Source: Paenibacillus hemerocallicola
Lineage (GTDB): Bacteria > Bacillota > Bacilli > Paenibacillales > NBRC-103111
Length of the DNA stretch: 64,000 bases
Direction of reading: 5' to 3'
NCBI RefSeq assembly: GCF_006265175.1
Contig: NZ_VDCQ01000056.1
Span: forward strand, 1-64,000
In this document: positions 2,427 to 33,146 of the stretch, in pieces
How the letters are laid out: every line of letters starts with the position of its first letter
Numbering within the stretch: position 1 is the stretch's first letter
The notes under the pieces: generated by a model
What the model was told of the DNA's origin: nothing
Databases searched by the model: none
The model's input: the letters and a program-made list of their open reading frames with translations, nothing else
Made by a program: the position numbers and the translations under genes

Positions 2427-3570
2427 GATTTACGGATGAATCCAATACAACGAGCCTACCCGTAATCACGCCGTTCTCGTCTCTGTAGAATAGTAGCGCT
2501 TTGTAGCCATCGTTTTCTACAATTATGGAGAAGTGATCCGAGAATCCGACCTGCCCCTCCTTAAATATTTGTTCGGGAGGTGTTGTATACTTCCAGCCCT
2601 CGTAGATGTATTGGATATTCCCCGAATCGTCGTAGTCCACTTCTTGGATGGATTCTCGTATCGTCTCCTCAATCGACTCGCCGCTGCGCACTTTGGCCCG
2701 CAGCTCTTCCATCGAGGTTACCCATTGCGGTTGCTCTGCATCAGCGTCGCTTTCTTTTTCCTTAGTTTGCTCCTCCATATAAGCCTCTGCCTTGACAGGG
2801 TCCGCTTTGGCAGGATCGAGCAGGAGATCGAACAGTACTGCGGCGCCGGGATAGTCTGCGTTGGCGTGCATCTCGCCAGTCGCCGCGTCATACGCAAAGG
2901 CTTTGTTGTTATAAAACGGGCTCCCGCTGCTGATTGCAAGGTATACTCCCTTATCTGCAAAAATCTCTATTTGGTCGCATGCGATCAGTCTATACATAAC
3001 GCCATCAATAACATCCTCGCTGTAGGAGCCGTTCATTGTGACGATGTTGAATTTCCAAGGCTCTAAGCCTTTGATCAACGGCGAGATGAAGAATGGATCC
3101 TTGCCATATTCGGGGTCGGCAACATCCGGCATTGGCTTGCCATCCTGTCTAGATATCGAAACAACCGCATAAGTTCTGTCGGGGAAGATTTGCTCCGATG
3201 CATTAGGAAATTCGCTAAGACCAGATCCCGATACGAGGCCATGCAGCGTAAAATGGTAGTCCCCGGAATTCTGCGATTGATCAATTCGAAGTGCGTCCGC
3301 GCTTGCGAATGCATTCGCCAATAATCGATCTCCGAATTGCACGGCGACTTGGTTGGCGTTTAAAAGCTTTGTCGCTGCATAGGCAGATACCGAAAGGACT
3401 AGCAATAAGGCAGCAGCAAGCAGGGCCGTCGACAATCTTTTCTTGTATTTCGGTTTCGTTTGGCGATGCTTCTCTATTTGATGAATGATGCTTTGATTCA
3501 ATTGTTCCTCAGGCTCGACCGTAGGCGCCAGAGATTGTCTGAGTAATCGCTCCCAATCCGCGTCCTTCAT
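2413..3570 (-). CDS. Membrane-anchored anti-sigma-like regulator
   Basis: 385 residues: a cytosolic N-terminus of about 46 residues beginning MKDADWERLL and rich in charged residues, one membrane segment at about 48-66 (LLAAALLLVLSVSAYAA), then a ~315-residue extracytoplasmic part. It overlaps the upstream ECF sigma gene by four bases (ATGA, 3567-3570), the usual arrangement for a sigma factor and its membrane-bound antagonist. The outer part resembles DUF4179/DUF5643-type anti-sigma proteins and has no recognisable enzymatic motif. It would hold the sigma factor at the membrane until an envelope signal arrives; the signal is unknown. Confidence 0.75.
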   Translation of the reverse strand: MKDADWERLLRQSLAPTVEPEEQLNQSIIHQIEKHRQTKPKYKKRLSTALLAAALLLVLSVSAYAATKLLNANQVAVQFGDRLLANAFASADALRIDQSQNSGDYHFTLHGLVSGSGLSEFPNASEQIFPDRTYAVVSISRQDGKPMPDVADPEYGKDPFFISPLIKGLEPWKFNIVTMNGSYSEDVIDGVMYRLIACDQIEIFADKGVYLAISSGSPFYNNKAFAYDAATGEMHANADYPGAAVLFDLLLDPAKADPVKAEAYMEEQTKEKESDADAEQPQWVTSMEELRAKVRSGESIEETIRESIQEVDYDDSGNIQYIYEGWKYTTPPEQIFKEGQVGFSDHFSIIVENDGYKALLFYRDENGVITGRLVVLDSSVNLEAK

Positions 3571-5424: not shown

Positions 5425-6456
5425 GTGAAGATTAATCGTTCAAGAAGGAACATGTTGAAGTGGGGGGCGGCAAGTACTTTCGCATTAGTGGGAGGGGCGT
5501 TTTTAAATCCCGGTTCATGGTTTCAAAAGTCGGCGCAAGCGATGGATAAACATGATGTTCATAATGCCCTGAAGCAGGACCTGCATTCGGGTATGAAGCA
5601 CGGATACGACCCCGGGACGGAAGTGACAGAAGGGTTGAAATCGGCTCGGGAAGCGTTGACACAGTTCGACTACGGGAAAGTCAGCAAAAGAGCTGATGGT
5701 AAAACGATCAGAGAGTACGAGATCAAAGCTCGTGAAAATGAAGTCGAGATTGCTAAAGGAATTAAATTCCCGGGATGGACGTATAACGGGACGATCCCAG
5801 GCCCAACGTTGCGATGCACGGAAGGGGATATCATTCGCGTAAAATTTTTCAATCAATCCAACCACCCGCATTCCATTCATTTTCACGGCATTCACCCGAC
5901 GAACATGGACGGACTGGAGGCTATACTTTCTGGTGAATCGTTTACTTATGAGTTTGAAGCGAAGCCTGCTGGCATGCAAGTATACCACTGTCATATCGCA
6001 CCGCTGGCGAGACACATCCACAAGGGGTTGTACGGCAACTTTATTATCGACCCGGTAAAACCGAGACCGGCCGCCAAAGAATTCAGCATGGTCATGAACG
6101 GGTTTGATTTGGATTTGGACGGCGAAAACGAAGTGTACACCGTTAACGGTTATGCATTCGCGTATCTTCAGGAGCCGATACAAGTAAAGGTAGGTGAGTT
6201 AGTTCGCATTTATTTGAGCAATCTCACTGAATTTGACCTCATCAATTCATTTCATCTGCATGCAAATTACTTTAATTATTACGCAACCGGCGCCGATCCG
6301 GATGCTCGTCCCAACTTTACGGACACGATCATGCAATGCCAGGGCGAACGGGGCGTTCTGGAAATCGTGTTTCCTACACCTGGCCGATATATGTTCCATG
6401 CCCACCAAAGCGAGTTTGCCGAATTGGGTTGGATGGGATTCTTTGTAGCCGAATAA
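5425..6456 (+). CDS. Tat-exported two-domain multicopper oxidase
   Basis: 343 residues with an N-terminal twin-arginine-type signal (SRRNMLKWGAAST, hydrophobic stretch, AQA cleavage region near residue 39). Copper ligands resemble those of two-domain nitrite reductase-type enzymes: HPHSIHFHGIH (147-157), YHCHIAPLARH (187-197) with Cys189 as the type 1 ligand, HLHANYF (277-283) and HAHQSEFAELG (325-335). The position matching the axial Met of nitrite reductases (GMNG) is Leu (GLYG, 201-204), as in laccase-like sites. GTG start at 5425 is eight bases after AGGAGG. It is followed after 19 bases by a ZIP transporter, so the two are probably co-transcribed. A role in metal or copper oxidation outside the membrane is inferred; the substrate is unknown. 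Confidence 0.83.
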   Translation: MKINRSRRNMLKWGAASTFALVGGAFLNPGSWFQKSAQAMDKHDVHNALKQDLHSGMKHGYDPGTEVTEGLKSAREALTQFDYGKVSKRADGKTIREYEIKARENEVEIAKGIKFPGWTYNGTIPGPTLRCTEGDIIRVKFFNQSNHPHSIHFHGIHPTNMDGLEAILSGESFTYEFEAKPAGMQVYHCHIAPLARHIHKGLYGNFIIDPVKPRPAAKEFSMVMNGFDLDLDGENEVYTVNGYAFAYLQEPIQVKVGELVRIYLSNLTEFDLINSFHLHANYFNYYATGADPDARPNFTDTIMQCQGERGVLEIVFPTPGRYMFHAHQSEFAELGWMGFFVAE

Positions 6457-6475
6457 GAAAGGAGGTCAAGTGATT

Positions 6476-7690
6476 ATGAGCAACCTGGAAATGAATCCCA
6501 TGAATCATAAACTTTCAAGTGGAAAAGGAAAGATGCTGCTTCTCGGCATATTGCCGTTCGTTCTTCTTATTGCTTTGGTCACAGGAATAGCCATAATGGG
6601 AACCGGAGTGGAGAACGAGCCGGCGGCGCCAATCGAAGTATTGAATGTGGAGAAGATTAAACTGACGAATGACGGTTTTGAAGTGAAGGTATTAAATTCG
6701 GGGCCGGAAGAAGTGACAATTGCCCAAGTCGTTGTTGATGGATCATTTTGGAATGCTTCTTACGTCCCGAGTCCGACCTTACAGCGTTTTGGTCAGGCAA
6801 TGGTGCAAATTCCATATCCGTGGGTGGCCGGCGATCCGCATGAGATCAAGTTCATTACATCAAACGGATTGATATTTACCGGGGCGGTAGAAGCTGCAGC
6901 ACAAACGCCGGTTCCCGATGTAAACCGATTCGCACAGTATGCATTGATCGGTTTTTATGTAGGTATTATTCCGGTGGGGCTAGGATTATTGTGGTACCCG
7001 TTCATGCGGCGTTTTAAGACTAAAGGTATGCATGCTATTCTTGCGTTTACTGTCGGACTTTTGTTTTTCCTTTTCGTTGACACGTTTGAAGAAGGGTTTG
7101 AAATGGCGACGGAAGCGCCGGGCGTCTTTCAAGGATCGGGGCTTGTTTGGTTCGGCGCATTTCTTAGTTTTCTGTTTTTGATCGCAGTTGATCAAATGAA
7201 CGAACGGAGAATGAAAAATAAATCCGAAAATGGTAAAAGAGTGTCGTATAAACTCGCGATGGGTATTGGGTTACACAATTTCGGCGAAGGATTAGCAATC
7301 GGAGCCGCATTTGCAATAGGGGAGTCAGCACTCGGTACGTTTCTGGTAATCGGCTTCACCCTGCATAATATTACGGAAGGCGTGGGGATAGCGGCCCCAT
7401 TGCTGAAAGATCGTCCAACTTGGAAAACGTTCGCTTCACTTGCCGCTATTGCCGGCGCACCAGCTATTTTGGGTACATGGACAGGGGGATTTATCTTCAA
7501 CCCGACTTTTGCGGCGCTGTTCTTTGGTATTGGAGCAGGAGCTATTTTACAAGTTATCTACGTCATTTCAAAAATGATTTGGAAGGAGTCGTCGGAAAAG
7601 GGATACGCTGCCGTATCCTGGCCCAACTTCAGCGGAATTTCATTAGGGATTTTGGTTATGTATGTGACGGCACTCTTGGTTAATTTTTAA
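6476..7690 (+). CDS. ZIP-family divalent metal transporter with extra N-terminal domain
   Basis: About 404 residues. An N-terminal membrane anchor (LLLGILPFVLLIALVTGIAI) is followed by a ~100-residue beta-rich domain outside the membrane, then a ZIP permease body. Both ZIP signature helices are present: GLHNFGEGLAIG and TLHNITEGVGIA, giving the paired HNxxEG metal-binding sites. ATG at 6476 is preferred, ten bases after GGAGG; a GTG at 6470 is only four bases away. The extra beta domain looks cupredoxin-like in length but lacks obvious Cys/His copper ligands. With the upstream oxidase this forms a two-gene metal module, and the order suggests the oxidase prepares or senses the ion the permease moves. 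Confidence 0.87.
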   Translation: MSNLEMNPMNHKLSSGKGKMLLLGILPFVLLIALVTGIAIMGTGVENEPAAPIEVLNVEKIKLTNDGFEVKVLNSGPEEVTIAQVVVDGSFWNASYVPSPTLQRFGQAMVQIPYPWVAGDPHEIKFITSNGLIFTGAVEAAAQTPVPDVNRFAQYALIGFYVGIIPVGLGLLWYPFMRRFKTKGMHAILAFTVGLLFFLFVDTFEEGFEMATEAPGVFQGSGLVWFGAFLSFLFLIAVDQMNERRMKNKSENGKRVSYKLAMGIGLHNFGEGLAIGAAFAIGESALGTFLVIGFTLHNITEGVGIAAPLLKDRPTWKTFASLAAIAGAPAILGTWTGGFIFNPTFAALFFGIGAGAILQVIYVISKMIWKESSEKGYAAVSWPNFSGISLGILVMYVTALLVNF

Positions 7691-19893: not shown

Positions 19894-19970
19894 GTGCCGG
19901 TCAACTCTACAAGGTAAATCAATAAAAAGGCCGACTTTTCGAAGTGCCGCGGCACCGAATCGTCAGCTCT
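19894..19970 (-). repeat. Duplicated leader element, split copy, distal part
   Basis: Matches 19320-19394 (GCCGGTCAACTCT, GCCGACTTTTC, GCACCGAATCG). It is separated from the proximal part by 156 bases with no counterpart in the intact copy. That points to an insertion here or a deletion there. Confidence 0.65.
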
Positions 19971-19980
19971 GGTTCGAGCC

Positions 19981-20009
19981 TTGAACTGAGAATGATTATC
20001 GATTATAAT
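19981..20009 (+). promoter_or_regulatory. Fur-controlled promoter of the AraC gene
   Basis: TTGAAC (19981-19986) and TATAAT (20004-20009) are 17 bases apart. The spacer contains TGAGAATGATTATCG (19987-20001), which matches the Fur 7-1-7 consensus TGATAATNATTATCA at all but two positions. Binding would block RNA polymerase, so expression should rise on iron limitation. Confidence 0.8.
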
Positions 20010-20048
20010 AACCCCAATTCTGCAAATGGCAATCGTGAGGTGCGGGCA

Positions 20049-22043
20049 TTGAATTGGGACGAGCAGATGCTGTTGTGGAATCAGGCGGCTGCCAGTATAT
20101 TGGATATTCGCCATATAGTGTTGTGGGAGGGGCAGGATCTGCTCTCTTATCAGCTCCCCGCGAATATGTTTCTACTTGTAGTTAGTGGCAGCGCTTACGT
20201 GCGAATCGATGAACACAAATGTTATCTCAAGCGGCATCATCTCCTGCACGCAGGCAAGGGGATGAATGTGGACATCATGCCTGCCAAGCATGAATTTTCT
20301 TATTACCTCGTTTACTATAAGGCCGTTCTGCCCGCTTCCGCGGCAAGCGGTGTCGCTAACGGAATGGTCATGAAGGCACAACCATTCCGCCTGTTCTACC
20401 ATGTGATCCTCCCGGAGCCGGGACTCGTGCACGGTCAAGTCCGCCGAATGTACGAGGAATGGCAGCAGTCCGGCGTATTGGCCCAGATTCGCATGAAATC
20501 GATGCTGTTTGAACTGATCTATGTGTTGTTCGGTCAATTGCAAAATTCCAAAGATCGGGGCAGCCCCTCGGATCTTGTGGCGTACGCACTGCGTTACATC
20601 CATGAGCATTACGCCGAAGCCGTATCCATGGATCAATTGGCCGAACTGCTCGGCTGCAGCAGCAGCTATATGTACAGACTGTTCAAAGCGGAGATCGGCA
20701 AAAGCCCGAACGATTACATAATCGGAATACGCCTGGAGCAAGCCCGACAATACCTGCTGACCACTCAGTTGAATCTGCGGGAAATTGCCCAGTCCGTCGG
20801 TTATTCGGATGTGTATTACTTTAGCCGATTGTTCAAAAAACAGTTCGGGATCTCGCCGCTTCAATCCCGCAAGCGTGAGTCCGAACATAGTGCTCTGCAT
20901 CGTAATCCATTAAATACGTCAGTATCCTCCATTGTTCCGTCTATGCCACTCTCCTATAATCATAATGTAAATGAAAATGATTATCATCAACAAGAAGGAG
21001 AGATACCATTGCTTTCGAACAACCATCCAAAATCTTCAATGACCGCCTTGGTCATGCTATGCCTGTCACTGCTGATCAGCGCCTGCCAGGCAGGCAGCGG
21101 CAATGTAGGCTCGGAGAGCAAGGGCAGCACGGCGTCCTCCACAGCCGGCGCCGCCAATTCCGCCGCTGCAAGCAAAGAGGCAGAGCCGTCCTCCGCGACG
21201 AGGCTGTACAAGCATAAATTCGGCGAAACAGCAATTCCGGCGAACCCGAAACGCATTGTTACCGCCTACCACCTCGGACATATGCTGGCATTGGACGTAC
21301 GCCCGCTTGGTGCTGCGACTTACATTCTGCAATACTCCCAGAAAGCCATGGATACGACCGGCGTCGTCGATTTGGGCGCTCCCCTCAATCTTGAGCGGAT
21401 TGCCGATCTGGAACCGGATTTGATTATATTAATCGAAGCCTATCTTGAGCCGAGCGGAGGGTACGAAGGCTTCAATAAAATCGCGCCTACCGTCGTACTC
21501 GAGGCGAATCAGGATCCGGTGAAAGATATCCGGTTGATCGGGGATTTGCTCGGCAAGCAGGACAAAGCCGAACAATGGATTACGCAATATCAGGCGAAGA
21601 TTGCTCAAACGAAAGAGCGTGTACAGCAACGGTTCGACCCTAACGAGACCTTCACCATTCTGAATGTACGGAGCGAGAAGTCTCGGATGATTTATCGGGA
21701 TCGCAATATGGGGGGCAATATTTTGTACTCGTATTGGGGATTAAAGCCGCAAGCGAAAGTGCTCAAAGATGTCATTCAAGGGATTGACGACGAATCCTCC
21801 TATCTGTCTATAGCGGAAGAAGCCATTCCGGAATACGTTGGCGATCATCTCATTGTGGCCGCGGCTCCCGGCGCTCAAGGCTCGGTCGACAAGCTCATGG
21901 CTAGCGGGCTATGGAAAAATCTCGATGCCGTCAAAAACAACCGCGTATACCGGATCGACTTCGATCAATTTCTGTTTAACGATCCTATCTTCGCGATGAA
22001 ACAAGTCGATATTTTGGCGGATGCCCTGACCAAGAACCGTTAA
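20049..22043 (+). CDS. AraC regulator reading in frame into a siderophore-binding protein
   Basis: Start TTG at 20049 is set by the promoter (transcription from about 20016) and by GAGGTG six bases upstream. The N-terminal ~180 residues form a sensing domain (MFLLVVSGSAYVRID). A C-terminal AraC double HTH follows at about 180-285 (MDQLAELLGCSSSYMYRLFK; REIAQSVGYSDVYYFSRLFK). No stop codon separates it from the lipoprotein gene at 21009, so readthrough gives a ~664-residue fusion. AraC fused to a binding-protein domain is known for the bacillibactin sensor Btr, but there the binding domain has no secretion signal; here a full lipoprotein signal lies inside the fusion. It is probably the activator of siderophore uptake. 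Whether the fusion protein is made is open. Confidence 0.75.
   Translation: MNWDEQMLLWNQAAASILDIRHIVLWEGQDLLSYQLPANMFLLVVSGSAYVRIDEHKCYLKRHHLLHAGKGMNVDIMPAKHEFSYYLVYYKAVLPASAASGVANGMVMKAQPFRLFYHVILPEPGLVHGQVRRMYEEWQQSGVLAQIRMKSMLFELIYVLFGQLQNSKDRGSPSDLVAYALRYIHEHYAEAVSMDQLAELLGCSSSYMYRLFKAEIGKSPNDYIIGIRLEQARQYLLTTQLNLREIAQSVGYSDVYYFSRLFKKQFGISPLQSRKRESEHSALHRNPLNTSVSSIVPSMPLSYNHNVNENDYHQQEGEIPLLSNNHPKSSMTALVMLCLSLLISACQAGSGNVGSESKGSTASSTAGAANSAAASKEAEPSSATRLYKHKFGETAIPANPKRIVTAYHLGHMLALDVRPLGAATYILQYSQKAMDTTGVVDLGAPLNLERIADLEPDLIILIEAYLEPSGGYEGFNKIAPTVVLEANQDPVKDIRLIGDLLGKQDKAEQWITQYQAKIAQTKERVQQRFDPNETFTILNVRSEKSRMIYRDRNMGGNILYSYWGLKPQAKVLKDVIQGIDDESSYLSIAEEAIPEYVGDHLIVAAAPGAQGSVDKLMASGLWKNLDAVKNNRVYRIDFDQFLFNDPIFAMKQVDILADALTKNR
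20932..20986 (+). promoter_or_regulatory. Internal promoter with Fur box inside the AraC frame
   Basis: TTGTTC (20932-20937) and TATAAT (20955-20960) have a 17-base spacer. TGAAAATGATTATCA (20972-20986) follows directly and matches the Fur consensus TGATAATNATTATCA with one mismatch. These bases are at the same time open reading frame of the upstream gene. Confidence 0.8.
21009..22043 (+). CDS. Iron-siderophore ABC transporter binding lipoprotein
   Basis: 345 residues from TTG at 21009, eight bases after AAGGAG. A lipoprotein signal (MTALVMLCLSLLISAC, lipobox LISAC) is followed by a Ser/Ala-rich linker and a FecB/FhuD-type periplasmic-binding fold (FGETAIPANPKRIVTAYHLG; LERIADLEPDLIIL; FNKIAPTV). 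This class captures ferric siderophores outside the membrane and passes them to a FecCD permease. No permease or ATPase gene is adjacent; a FecCD-type permease fragment lies at the far end of the window. Its own promoter, Fur box and ribosome binding site support independent expression, in spite of the open frame continuing from the AraC gene. Confidence 0.88.
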   Translation: MLSNNHPKSSMTALVMLCLSLLISACQAGSGNVGSESKGSTASSTAGAANSAAASKEAEPSSATRLYKHKFGETAIPANPKRIVTAYHLGHMLALDVRPLGAATYILQYSQKAMDTTGVVDLGAPLNLERIADLEPDLIILIEAYLEPSGGYEGFNKIAPTVVLEANQDPVKDIRLIGDLLGKQDKAEQWITQYQAKIAQTKERVQQRFDPNETFTILNVRSEKSRMIYRDRNMGGNILYSYWGLKPQAKVLKDVIQGIDDESSYLSIAEEAIPEYVGDHLIVAAAPGAQGSVDKLMASGLWKNLDAVKNNRVYRIDFDQFLFNDPIFAMKQVDILADALTKNR

Positions 22044-29992: not shown

Positions 29993-31723
29993 ATGCATAG
30001 AATCGCTGCAATGAGCCTTATCATCATCGTACTGGCGACCGGGATCTGGCTGGGCATTCAACCTCTGAAGCCGCCGTCACCGCCGTCCGAATCCGATGCT
30101 GATTATCCGGCATATCACCAAATGATGGCCAATCTGAAGGCCATGACCCTCGCACCGCACCCATCCGGCTCGGAGGAGCTGGCATCGGTACGGGCCTATT
30201 TATTGGCGCAAATCCGCGCTATGGGCTTGGAAGCGACGATCGAGAAAGTACGCTACACAGTCGCGGACGTGGAAGCTGACATTCTGGAACGTAATGGCGC
30301 GCCGAAGTTCAACAACAATCATGTTGGCGAACCGCCACCCGCGGACGCCTTCAAGGATACCATTCGCCGCAGGGCTCATTTTGACGAGAACGATGAAGTG
30401 GTCCTGCAAAACATACTGGTAAAGCTGGATGCTCCAGGAACCGATCGAGGCATCCTGTTGTCGGCCCATTATGACACCAAACCGACGACCCCGGGCGCGG
30501 CCGACGACATGATCTCCGTAAGCGCCATGCTGGAAGCCATGCGCGAGCAAGCGGACAAAGCGAATTTACGATCGGACCTTTATTTTCTGTTCACGGATGG
30601 CGAGGAGCTAGGGGCGCTGGGAGCGAAGGCTTTCGTTCAATCGCATCCTGAGCTGCTGGATACCATCGATCTGGTCGTTAACTTCGAAGCGCGCGGCAAT
30701 CGCGGCGGGCTGCTGATGTTCGAGACTTCCGACGACAACCTGGATGCGGTACGCTACTTCCAGTCGGCAAGCTCGCGTCCGCTGGCGTACTCGTTCACGA
30801 CCGCGCTGTACCGCAGAATGCCGAACGGGACGGACTTGACCCATTATTTGAAGGCGGGTTATACCGGACTGAATTTCGCGGCGGCGGAGGGGGTCGAGCA
30901 TTACCACAGACTATCGGACAGTTTTGAAAATTTGGATCGCGGCACGGCGTACCATTTTCTGCAGACGGTCATGGAAATGGCGAATCATGCCGCGAGCGAG
31001 CCCTTTCAGGACAGCAGACGACAGGATAGCCTTTATTTCCCGTTGTTCCCAGGCCATTTGGCCGTGATGAGCCGCGCCGCGTCTTATGCCCTGTCGGCAG
31101 CGGCCGCTTTGTTCGCTGTCTGGTGGATGATCGTGCAGATTCGAACGGACAAGGTTCGGCTTCGCATGATTTTCGTAGAAGCGGGCTGGTTGCTCGGCGG
31201 GGTGGTCGGAGCAGCCTTGTTCAGCTGGGGAATCGTATTCGGGTTAACGCGATTGATGCAATTGGATGAGTCCACGAATAATGACACGGTGTTTCTGAGC
31301 GTCATCTTGGCTTTGGGCGCCTGCGTTCTCGCCGCAGGAAGCCTCCTGGTCCGCAAGCTGTCGCTGCGCCAAGCGATTGCCGGTCTCGTGCCGCTTCTTT
31401 TGCTGCTGATTGTCGGTAGCGCCGCTCTGTTCCAAGATATAAGCTATTTGTTTTCCTTTGCCACGCTGGGGATTCTGGTTGTCGCCCTGCTGGATCGGTA
31501 CCGGATCGGAAGATGGATCGCAACGGCCGTTGTCGGCGCAGGAATAGGGTTTTTGTATGCGCCCGTATGTTGGTTGATCTATGTACTGTTCATGTTGCCG
31601 TTCGCCCCGGTCGTGGCCGCAATAAGCGTCATTCCGATCTCGATGGCAGCCGCCTTGTTGGCGACAACGTCGAAAGATGCTTCGGGACCGAACCGTTCCG
31701 CTGCATTGTTTACAAGCAGTTAG
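29993..31723 (+). CDS. Membrane-anchored M28-family metallopeptidase
   Basis: 576 residues. An N-terminal membrane anchor (MSLIIIVLATGIWLGI) is followed by an M28 aminopeptidase-type domain with the zinc set: HYDTKP (His159, Asp161), GAADDM, DGEELG, FEARG and a late His in EHYHRLSD. The C-terminal ~215 residues hold about seven membrane segments, an arrangement like ERMP1/vacuolar-type membrane proteases. The catalytic domain would face outside. ATG at 29993 follows GGGAGG by seven bases. It may act in peptide or signal-peptide turnover; it directly follows a two-component system. Confidence 0.88.
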   Translation: MHRIAAMSLIIIVLATGIWLGIQPLKPPSPPSESDADYPAYHQMMANLKAMTLAPHPSGSEELASVRAYLLAQIRAMGLEATIEKVRYTVADVEADILERNGAPKFNNNHVGEPPPADAFKDTIRRRAHFDENDEVVLQNILVKLDAPGTDRGILLSAHYDTKPTTPGAADDMISVSAMLEAMREQADKANLRSDLYFLFTDGEELGALGAKAFVQSHPELLDTIDLVVNFEARGNRGGLLMFETSDDNLDAVRYFQSASSRPLAYSFTTALYRRMPNGTDLTHYLKAGYTGLNFAAAEGVEHYHRLSDSFENLDRGTAYHFLQTVMEMANHAASEPFQDSRRQDSLYFPLFPGHLAVMSRAASYALSAAAALFAVWWMIVQIRTDKVRLRMIFVEAGWLLGGVVGAALFSWGIVFGLTRLMQLDESTNNDTVFLSVILALGACVLAAGSLLVRKLSLRQAIAGLVPLLLLLIVGSAALFQDISYLFSFATLGILVVALLDRYRIGRWIATAVVGAGIGFLYAPVCWLIYVLFMLPFAPVVAAISVIPISMAAALLATTSKDASGPNRSAALFTSS

Positions 31724-31757
31724 ATTTAGAAAAATTCAAAATTTTCCACTTTGTGTA

Positions 31758-31801
31758 TTGCATCGCGGAGTAATTTTAATTACTATATAAAGTAAGGGAG
31801 G
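31758..31801 (+). promoter_or_regulatory. Promoter with overlapping perfect palindrome before the HTH/F1-beta gene
   Basis: TTGCAT (31758-31763) and TACTAT (31781-31786) are separated by 17 bases. AGTAATT-TT-AATTACT (31769-31784), a perfect 7-2-7 palindrome, covers the spacer end and part of the -10. AGGGAGG at 31795-31801 is the ribosome binding site. The geometry fits autorepression by the HTH protein encoded just downstream. Confidence 0.6.
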
Positions 31802-31809
31802 TGAGAAAG

Positions 31810-32886
31810 ATGAATGATGAATTACATCTCAATGTCTCGCTTTTGCGACGTCGTGTCCCGAATCTTACAACGGCAGCACGCGCCGCAGGTTTAAGGCCGG
31901 CTACAGTTTCAAATCTGTGCACAGGAAAAATTCCTGTAGGTAGGGCTGAAGTCCGAACGCTCGCGATTCTTGCGTCTCTGGCGAATTGCAGTATCGACGA
32001 ATTGATTATTCGAGGGAGTGGGGCAAGCATGATTGAAACGGGAATAAAAGTTTTAGACTTGTTGGCGCCTGTCGTCCGGGGAGGTACCGTTGGTCTGGTG
32101 GCCCGGCATGGGGTGGGGCAGCTTGTTATGCTGGCAGAGCTCTTTCATCGGGTAAAACAGCGCGGGTACAAGACCATTCTCTGGGAACCCCAATATGATG
32201 CCGGGGACAAGTACAACATTAAGAAAGGCATGGAAGATGTGTTGCCTCAAGCCGATTTTATATGCAAATCTCTTGACGAGGTATCCGAACAAATATCTTT
32301 GCTGGGCACGGAATGTGATGTTATCTTGGGCGCCGATCGGGAAATTGTCATTTCCGGCGAATTATTGGCGCTTCGCGAGCGGCTTCAAGAAGCTGGAGTC
32401 CGTCCCTTGACCGTTGCCCTTGTTGACACCCGCTTCAACGCGCCGGATGAAGAAGTTCCCTATGGTCCGCTCGATACGCTTCTTCGCTTTGATGTGGATT
32501 TGGCTTCTCGCAAATTTTTTCCTGCAGTGGATCCACTGGCGTCCACATCGACGGTTTTGGAGGGAGCCCAATTGGAGGCAACGCATCTTATGATTCAGCA
32601 GCGGGCCAAAAAGCTGCTTCGTCGTTATCGGGAACTGCGCTTTCTGGTCGATAAGCAAGGAGTAGAAAAAATACCGGAAACGGATGTGCAAACCTACTAT
32701 CGCGGAGAACGTCTGGAGGCATTTCTTACTCAACCGTTTTATACCGCCGAGCCCTATACGAAAAAGCCCGGAGAATGGTTGACGCTTCAGGGGACATTGG
32801 ATAGCGTTAGGCGTATCATGGATGGGGCTGTTGATGATTTAGAGCCTGACCAACTTATGTATGTCGGAAGCTTGATGAAAAATTAG
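31810..32886 (+). CDS. HTH domain fused to a degenerate F1-ATPase beta-like protein
   Basis: 358 residues. Residues 1-70 form a Cro/C1-type HTH (LTTAARAAGLRPATVSNLCT; VRTLAILASLANCSIDELI). From residue 74 the chain follows the F-type ATP synthase beta subunit: ETGIKVLDLLAPVVRGG (76-92), a P-loop position reading RHGVGQLV where beta has GAGVGKTV, a Walker-B-like DVILGAD (170-176), FFPAVDPLASTST (236-248), and the C-terminal helical domain (RYRELRFLVDKQG, AFLTQPFYTAEPYT, DDLEPDQLMYVGSL). The N-terminal beta barrel and about 60 residues of the catalytic core are missing, as are the P-loop Lys and Thr. It cannot be a rotary ATPase subunit; a transcription factor using the old nucleotide fold as a sensor or scaffold is my inference. 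ATG at 31810 is eight bases after AGGGAGG. Confidence 0.85.
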   Translation: MNDELHLNVSLLRRRVPNLTTAARAAGLRPATVSNLCTGKIPVGRAEVRTLAILASLANCSIDELIIRGSGASMIETGIKVLDLLAPVVRGGTVGLVARHGVGQLVMLAELFHRVKQRGYKTILWEPQYDAGDKYNIKKGMEDVLPQADFICKSLDEVSEQISLLGTECDVILGADREIVISGELLALRERLQEAGVRPLTVALVDTRFNAPDEEVPYGPLDTLLRFDVDLASRKFFPAVDPLASTSTVLEGAQLEATHLMIQQRAKKLLRRYRELRFLVDKQGVEKIPETDVQTYYRGERLEAFLTQPFYTAEPYTKKPGEWLTLQGTLDSVRRIMDGAVDDLEPDQLMYVGSLMKN

Positions 32887-32916
32887 ACCGCTCCTTGGCG
32901 AAGAAGCGGTCTTTAG
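32885..32916 (+). terminator. Terminator of the HTH/F1-beta-like gene
   Basis: AGACCGCT (32885-32892, including part of the stop codon) pairs with AGCGGTCT (32905-32912), followed by TTTAG. Confidence 0.65.
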
Positions 32917-33146
32917 AAAAAAACATGTTCATATTTATCGTAGCACGGATCTTTGGGGTCATCAAGCTATGAATACAACTATAAGTAAGTAACATCGAAG
33001 AAGCGGTTGTCAATCCATACGACGATCGCTTCTTTGGCGGATTCAAGTGCTCTAATGAATTGCTTTAAGAAACGATAAGCAAGCACAAAGTCGTCTTTAA
33101 TTGAAGCGTCAAAAGGCGCCCGTTTATTGTTAATAATTTTACAGTT
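32917..33146 (-). other. Orphan C-terminal reading frame between genes
   Basis: On the minus strand, between the aquaporin stop and about 32985, one frame reads APFDASIKDDFVLAYRFLKQ, then FIRALESAKEAIVVWIDNRF and FDVTYL with a stop. It has normal protein character but no start codon. It may be the tail of a lost gene; no family recognised. Confidence 0.35.

Follow-up and report, generated by a model that had tools for sequence, protein, structure and literature searches.

A gene at positions 31810–32886 of the window, by which we mean the whole 64,000-nucleotide stretch of Paenibacillus hemerocallicola DNA that was analysed, raises the question of what a helix-turn-helix (HTH) domain joined to the body of an F1-ATPase β subunit might control and what it might sense. 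We took the ATG at 31810 as the likely start of this regulator because GGGAGGTG lies 6 bp upstream of it and the in-frame GTG at 31801 is weaker. The features of the gene and its protein are as follows, with the basis of each assignment in brackets.

31810–32886 (+): coding sequence of the HTH–F1-β-like regulator, 358 aa (ORF list, profiles, orthologues)
31822–32013 (+): Cro/C1-type HTH, residues 5–68 (profile, homologue alignment)
32029–32883 (+): F1-β nucleotide-binding and C-terminal helical domains, residues 74–358, without the N-terminal barrel (profile, model)
32101–32127 (+): degenerate P-loop ARHGVGQLV, residues 98–106; family AR[PH]GMGQLV (67-homologue alignment)
32317–32340 (+): Walker B-like DVILGADR, residues 170–177, Asp176 invariant (alignment)
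32518–32520 (+): Phe237, equivalent of the adenine-stacking Tyr345 (F/Y in 67/67)
32737–32757 (+): adenine box, Phe310 (bovine F418) and Tyr316 (bovine F424) (F in 67/67; F/Y in 63/67)
31796–31803 (+): Shine–Dalgarno sequence GGGAGGTG (sequence)
32885–32912 (unstranded): terminator-like hairpin past the regulator stop codon, 12 pairs (hairpin computation)

A sequence-only reading of this DNA had proposed that the chain follows F1 β over about 280 residues and lacks its N-terminal barrel. In the profile search, TIGR01039 (atpD) matched the regulator with E 9.7e-37 and 126.8 bits, without reaching its cut-off of 462.85, and Pfam ATP-synt_ab scored 32.1 bits, exceeding its cut-off of 29.5. The HTH match on the N-terminus came out just below threshold (HTH_26, E 0.0011, 19.6 bits, cut-off 22); helices are predicted for this region in the model. 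Among the PDB sequence matches listed, all were rotary/T3SS-type ATPases, the best being the ancestral hybrid F1 β 9nvl_D (E 3.5e-33). An AlphaFold model computed from 67 family sequences had a mean pLDDT of 87.5, and its residues 70–358 superposed on F1 β with Z 28.5 over 280 of 289 residues, at an rmsd of 2.6 Å and about 28% identity (Foldseek, VIA-align). The match to F1 β continued past residue 74 as far as residue 355, so that the objection of no significant match beyond residue 74 falls away. It began at residue 70, and alignment and model agreed that the N-terminal β-barrel (crown) is missing. Judged from these sequence and model comparisons, the ORF is a Cro/C1-like HTH joined to a catalytically dead F1-β body. 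As had been stated, no ATP synthase genes lie beside the regulator; the true AtpD of this genome sits on a different contig (C87). Enzyme-derived regulators are already known, and the claim that none built from F1 β had been described agreed with our literature searches, in which we found neither an HTH–F1-β regulator nor any regulator derived from a rotary ATPase subunit.

We then examined the residues of the nucleotide pocket across the 67 homologues. The replacement of GAGVGKTV by RHGVGQLV is as the sequence-only reading described it and is general: the Walker A Lys is Gln in 67/67 (GxGQL instead of GxGKT), and the Thr is L, M, V or I in all 67, with Leu in 60. The column of the catalytic Glu188 is mostly G (E in 10/67), and the R189 position is not kept. 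We infer from these missing residues that catalysis was lost in the F1-β body, and a low affinity for triphosphates is therefore expected. The adenine-box aromatics are retained (Y345 as F/Y in 67/67, F418 as F in 67/67, F424 as F/Y in 63/67), as is the Walker B Asp176, which is invariant in the family. Because these aromatics are kept and the former P-loop has become the conserved motif AR[PH]GMGQLV, the pocket looks remodelled rather than decayed. The earlier suggestion that the old nucleotide pocket acts as a sensor can accordingly be retained in part: since the aromatic box and the new motif ARPGMGQLV persist, the pocket may still serve as the sensor site, but its ligand is probably other than the nucleotide of F1 β.

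The region upstream of the gene carries the following elements.

31758–31763 (+): TTGCAT at the putative −35 position (TTGC at −22 in the array)
31770–31783 (+): GTAATTTTAATTAC, putative 14-bp operator dyad, located in the spacer and −10 region of the promoter (upstream-region alignment)
31780–31795 (+): TTACTATATAAAGTAA, second putative dyad overlapping the −10 (TACTAT, 31781–31786) and the start region (upstream-region alignment)

The gene's own promoter carries GTAA/TTAC half-sites in 78 of 80 homologues; they recur about every 11 bp across spacer, −10 and start. This conserved array is consistent with the earlier prediction that the protein acts on its own promoter. When promoters were aligned on TTACtatataaaGTAA, half-sites of alternating orientation were found at −55, −45, −33, −22, −10, 0 and +12, yielding alternate dyads GTAA-N6-TTAC and TTAC-N8-GTAA. 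The proximal four matched at three or more of four bases in 79–97% of 78 promoters, compared with 5–6% at control positions; in the window they are TTGC 31758, GTAA 31770, TTAC 31780 and GTAA 31792. In acetamidase promoters the −22 element reads TTGACT, with TACTAT or similar following 17 bp later, which makes it the probable −35 box. A promoter scan called no promoter at the regulator's own site in the window because the −35 is poor there.

Because the plain pattern GTAA-N6-TTAC-N8-GTAA was too noisy in AT-rich genomes, we used a profile model, namely a sequence-only covariance model with a threshold of E ≤ 1e-3. The whole array in the window scored E 3.1e-9. The model matched 85 of 97 regulator genomes (40/40 in a first set and 45/57 in a second set, for which the search filters were stricter), of which about 28 had supplied training sequences and a few were counted twice. 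Among 40 regulator-less genomes, none matched at E ≤ 1e-3, the best value being 1.5e-3. TnrA/GlnR boxes (TGTNA-N7-TNACA) were ruled out as the source of the array, given that spacing and outer bases differ and that the array tracks the regulator gene.

The regulator presumably binds these elements. Its HTH would recognize the GTAA/TTAC half-sites as alternating dyads, and neighbouring dimers, about 22 bp apart on the same DNA face, would bind cooperatively. Both this spacing and the 14-bp GTAA-N6-TTAC dyads resemble 434-type operator geometry. Lambda/434-type repressors differ in having a LexA-type dimerisation domain in place of the F1-β-like effector domain, and we saw no sign of a role for the regulator in phage lysogeny. 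Protein bound along the array would occlude a σA-type promoter at its spacer, −10 and start and thereby block RNA polymerase; repression is therefore favoured over activation. That the protein instead activates the same promoters is unlikely: the array extends upstream of −35 in many species, as an activator would allow, but the half-sites conserved best are those of the spacer, the −10 and the start, and protein bound there would obstruct the polymerase.

Arrays outside the regulator's own operon precede genes for M3 oligoendopeptidases (L189, E 2.9e-9; L250, E 3.7e-10), amidases (L191, E 6e-7; L199, E 2.5e-3), acetamidases/formamidases (L244, E 1.4e-5; L208, E 3.4e-4; L200, E 2e-3) and an alpha/beta hydrolase (L195). 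At L192 (E 2e-6) the acetamidase/formamidase gene lies behind a kinase gene, and a weak array at L196 (E 5e-4) precedes an adenine deaminase-like gene. These families were named by Pfam and NCBIfam, except for L244, which was named by sequence resemblance. Arrays at L193 (G003:C10), L251 (G426:C1) and L252 have no clear target, the first two scoring E about 1e-5. Within L192, positions 3230–3390 hold two arrays in succession before the small kinase-like gene and the acetamidase gene.

At some loci the regulator gene itself is linked to such enzymes. Of 95 distinct loci, 17 have acetamidase-like genes within the regulator's same-strand run; in this survey some hydrolase labels derive from reference proteins of those same loci, and thus only the families confirmed by Pfam or NCBIfam are independent. 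In several Paenibacillus (L240, L245–L247) a single array is followed by acetamidase, alpha/beta hydrolase and regulator; other orders are regulator–acetamidase (L255, L258) and regulator–amidase (L256, L257), and at L040 an M3 peptidase gene precedes the regulator. Since regulator genomes hold none to a few acetamidase genes each, chance linkage at the observed rate is implausible. Of the acetamidase loci scanned in these genomes, only 1/25 had an array, so that control would be confined to a subset; every acetamidase as a target was thereby ruled out. The model found the self site only in the window's own genome, where Pfam found no acetamidase; the regulator's neighbours are an M28 peptidase gene, missing in close relatives, and an aquaporin gene. 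These results point to a predicted regulon of amide and ester hydrolases, comprising acetamidase/formamidase, amidase, M3 oligoendopeptidase and alpha/beta hydrolase.

The same data bear on the proposal that the protein senses the energy state of the cell or the ATP synthase itself, which they do not support: we saw no array at an atp gene, the protein has lost the Lys, Thr, Glu and Arg that would hold the nucleotide phosphates, and its predicted targets are amide and ester hydrolases. In its energy-sensing form, the F1-β domain would bind ATP, ADP or adenosine and tune nitrogen scavenging through amide hydrolysis to the energy state. The retained adenine-box aromatics and Walker B Asp would suit such a role, and so would the array before the adenine deaminase-like gene at L196. 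We nevertheless regard it as improbable, considering the expected low triphosphate affinity and that we found no array at any atp or central energy gene, nor any atp gene adjoining the regulator. In the other form, the regulator would contact α, γ or ε of the real ATP synthase through its β surface, and its C-terminal domain is indeed well conserved and resembles the real β subunit. However, the barrel that holds the α3β3 crown is absent, atp genes are not linked, and the HTH rather than the β part is most conserved (mean pairwise identity of 0.82 compared with 0.57–0.60 in the F1 part among 67 homologues), which makes this form very improbable.

The fold, the residue losses, the conserved array, the co-occurrence of array and gene, and the hydrolase linkage are direct observations. 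Beside them we consider it probable that the protein serves as a dedicated transcription factor and, most likely, represses its own and amide-hydrolase genes, using the dead F1-β body as its sensor. Control would be cis-acting, the protein serving as autorepressor of its own gene and of linked hydrolase genes. The pseudo-ATPase body would probably have been reused as an effector-binding domain. Its ligand is likely to be a substrate or product of the hydrolases, of amide or peptide nature; once bound, it would weaken the grip on DNA and thereby turn on the regulator and the amide/ester hydrolase genes. A rotary-motor subunit has thus apparently been turned into a genetic switch that acts on the gene encoding it and on amide-cleaving enzymes close by.

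A different ligand is conceivable. The dead F1 β could be a decoy that detects natural ATP-synthase inhibitors, or related peptides or amides, and induces hydrolases that destroy them. The predicted regulated enzymes cut amides, peptides and esters, the hosts are often soil Bacillales, and the body has lost catalytic residues yet retains the nucleotide and C-terminal domains, which hold the binding sites of known F1 inhibitors. A catabolic substrate with small-amide hydrolases is the simpler account, and we rate the decoy as a long shot. If true, it would be the rotary-ATPase counterpart of PBP-derived β-lactam sensors, of which BlaR1 is one.

For the catabolic repressor that we prefer, the nearest working parallel for an enzyme-derived effector sensor is BzdR of Azoarcus, in which an HTH-XRE domain is carried on a dead shikimate kinase-like domain that retains Walker A and binds benzoyl-CoA (PMC3602430). 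Both proteins combine an N-terminal XRE-type HTH with a P-loop enzyme fold in which catalysis is lost (here inferred from residues), and both have operators within the controlled promoter and a catabolic gene set under control (here both predicted). They differ in source (shikimate kinase compared with rotary ATPase β), in the pocket (Walker A kept and benzoyl-CoA as ligand, compared with a Walker A rewritten to GxGQL), and in phylum and regulon. Compared with AtpD (TIGR01039), the regulator is alike in fold across its nucleotide-binding and C-terminal domains, at the Z-score and identity given above, but it lacks the barrel, the Walker A Lys/Thr and the catalytic Glu, lies outside the atp operon and has gained an HTH. 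The N-ATPase β (TIGR03305), MSC_0618 and MMOB1670/G1-ATPase families are likewise divergent F1-β homologues beyond the housekeeping synthase. They are ATPase subunits without an HTH, and their profiles score lower on the regulator than TIGR01039.

In a tree with sparse sampling, the regulator family had a single origin on a long stem, nearer to housekeeping AtpD than to N-ATPase β, which branches apart from it, or to α. At least 251 relatives are present in the species-level genome collection. The 80 listed are all from Bacillales-type Firmicutes, ranging from Paenibacillus to Bacillus, Sporosarcina, Lysinibacillus and Alicyclobacillus, and many hosts are soil Bacillales. A relatives search found 16 full-length members, including the window's, in 60 genomes, whose true AtpD genes are located elsewhere; across the order the gene was present in 48/395 genomes. 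Another 397 genomes sampled across the phylum yielded just two more members, and over the genomes surveyed the family thus has a restricted distribution. Since the family has a single origin, predicted operator and targets and a rewritten pocket, what the protein does, what it binds and how it evolved can be addressed together.

The window gene and its nearest orthologue showed purifying selection (dN 0.032, dS 0.214, dN/dS about 0.15). No neighbour gene is conserved in every genome, and the regulator gene changes location. Comparison of window positions 31723–33051 with positions 5914–7244 of the nearest relative (L063), whose regulator is 94% identical, showed that only 1.33 kb, containing gene, promoter and terminator, is common in about 13 kb. 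The gene thus seems to move as a unit. One true member resides on a large Paenibacillus plasmid; this protein, WP_152404100.1, is annotated as a hypothetical protein in RefSeq. Members match ATP synthase β profiles yet are likely to be transcription factors for amide catabolism, which is a warning for annotation.

Two other origins were rejected. Joining of separate HTH and β-like genes by a sequencing error, which the sequence-only reading had named as a possible objection, was ruled out, as every orthologue read is one continuous ORF. A phage or plasmid origin was likewise dismissed, the matches in a phage collection being partial and below 60% identity, as ordinary F1 β would give.

Additional copies or traces of the gene were also seen. 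In one genome, two regulator copies occur (L190, G423; L194, G415), each with an array before it. The window's own genome holds a C-terminal remnant (L031, G000:C78:482-718, − strand), 42% identical to residues 301–355, which is probably a decayed second copy (paralogue). Elsewhere in the window, a 699-aa ORF at 19944–22043 (+) contains an AraC-type HTH and a periplasmic-binding-protein domain (PF01497) separated by a lipobox-like stretch, LLISAC. It is either a fusion of a regulator with a lipoprotein of the siderophore-binding type or two joined genes.
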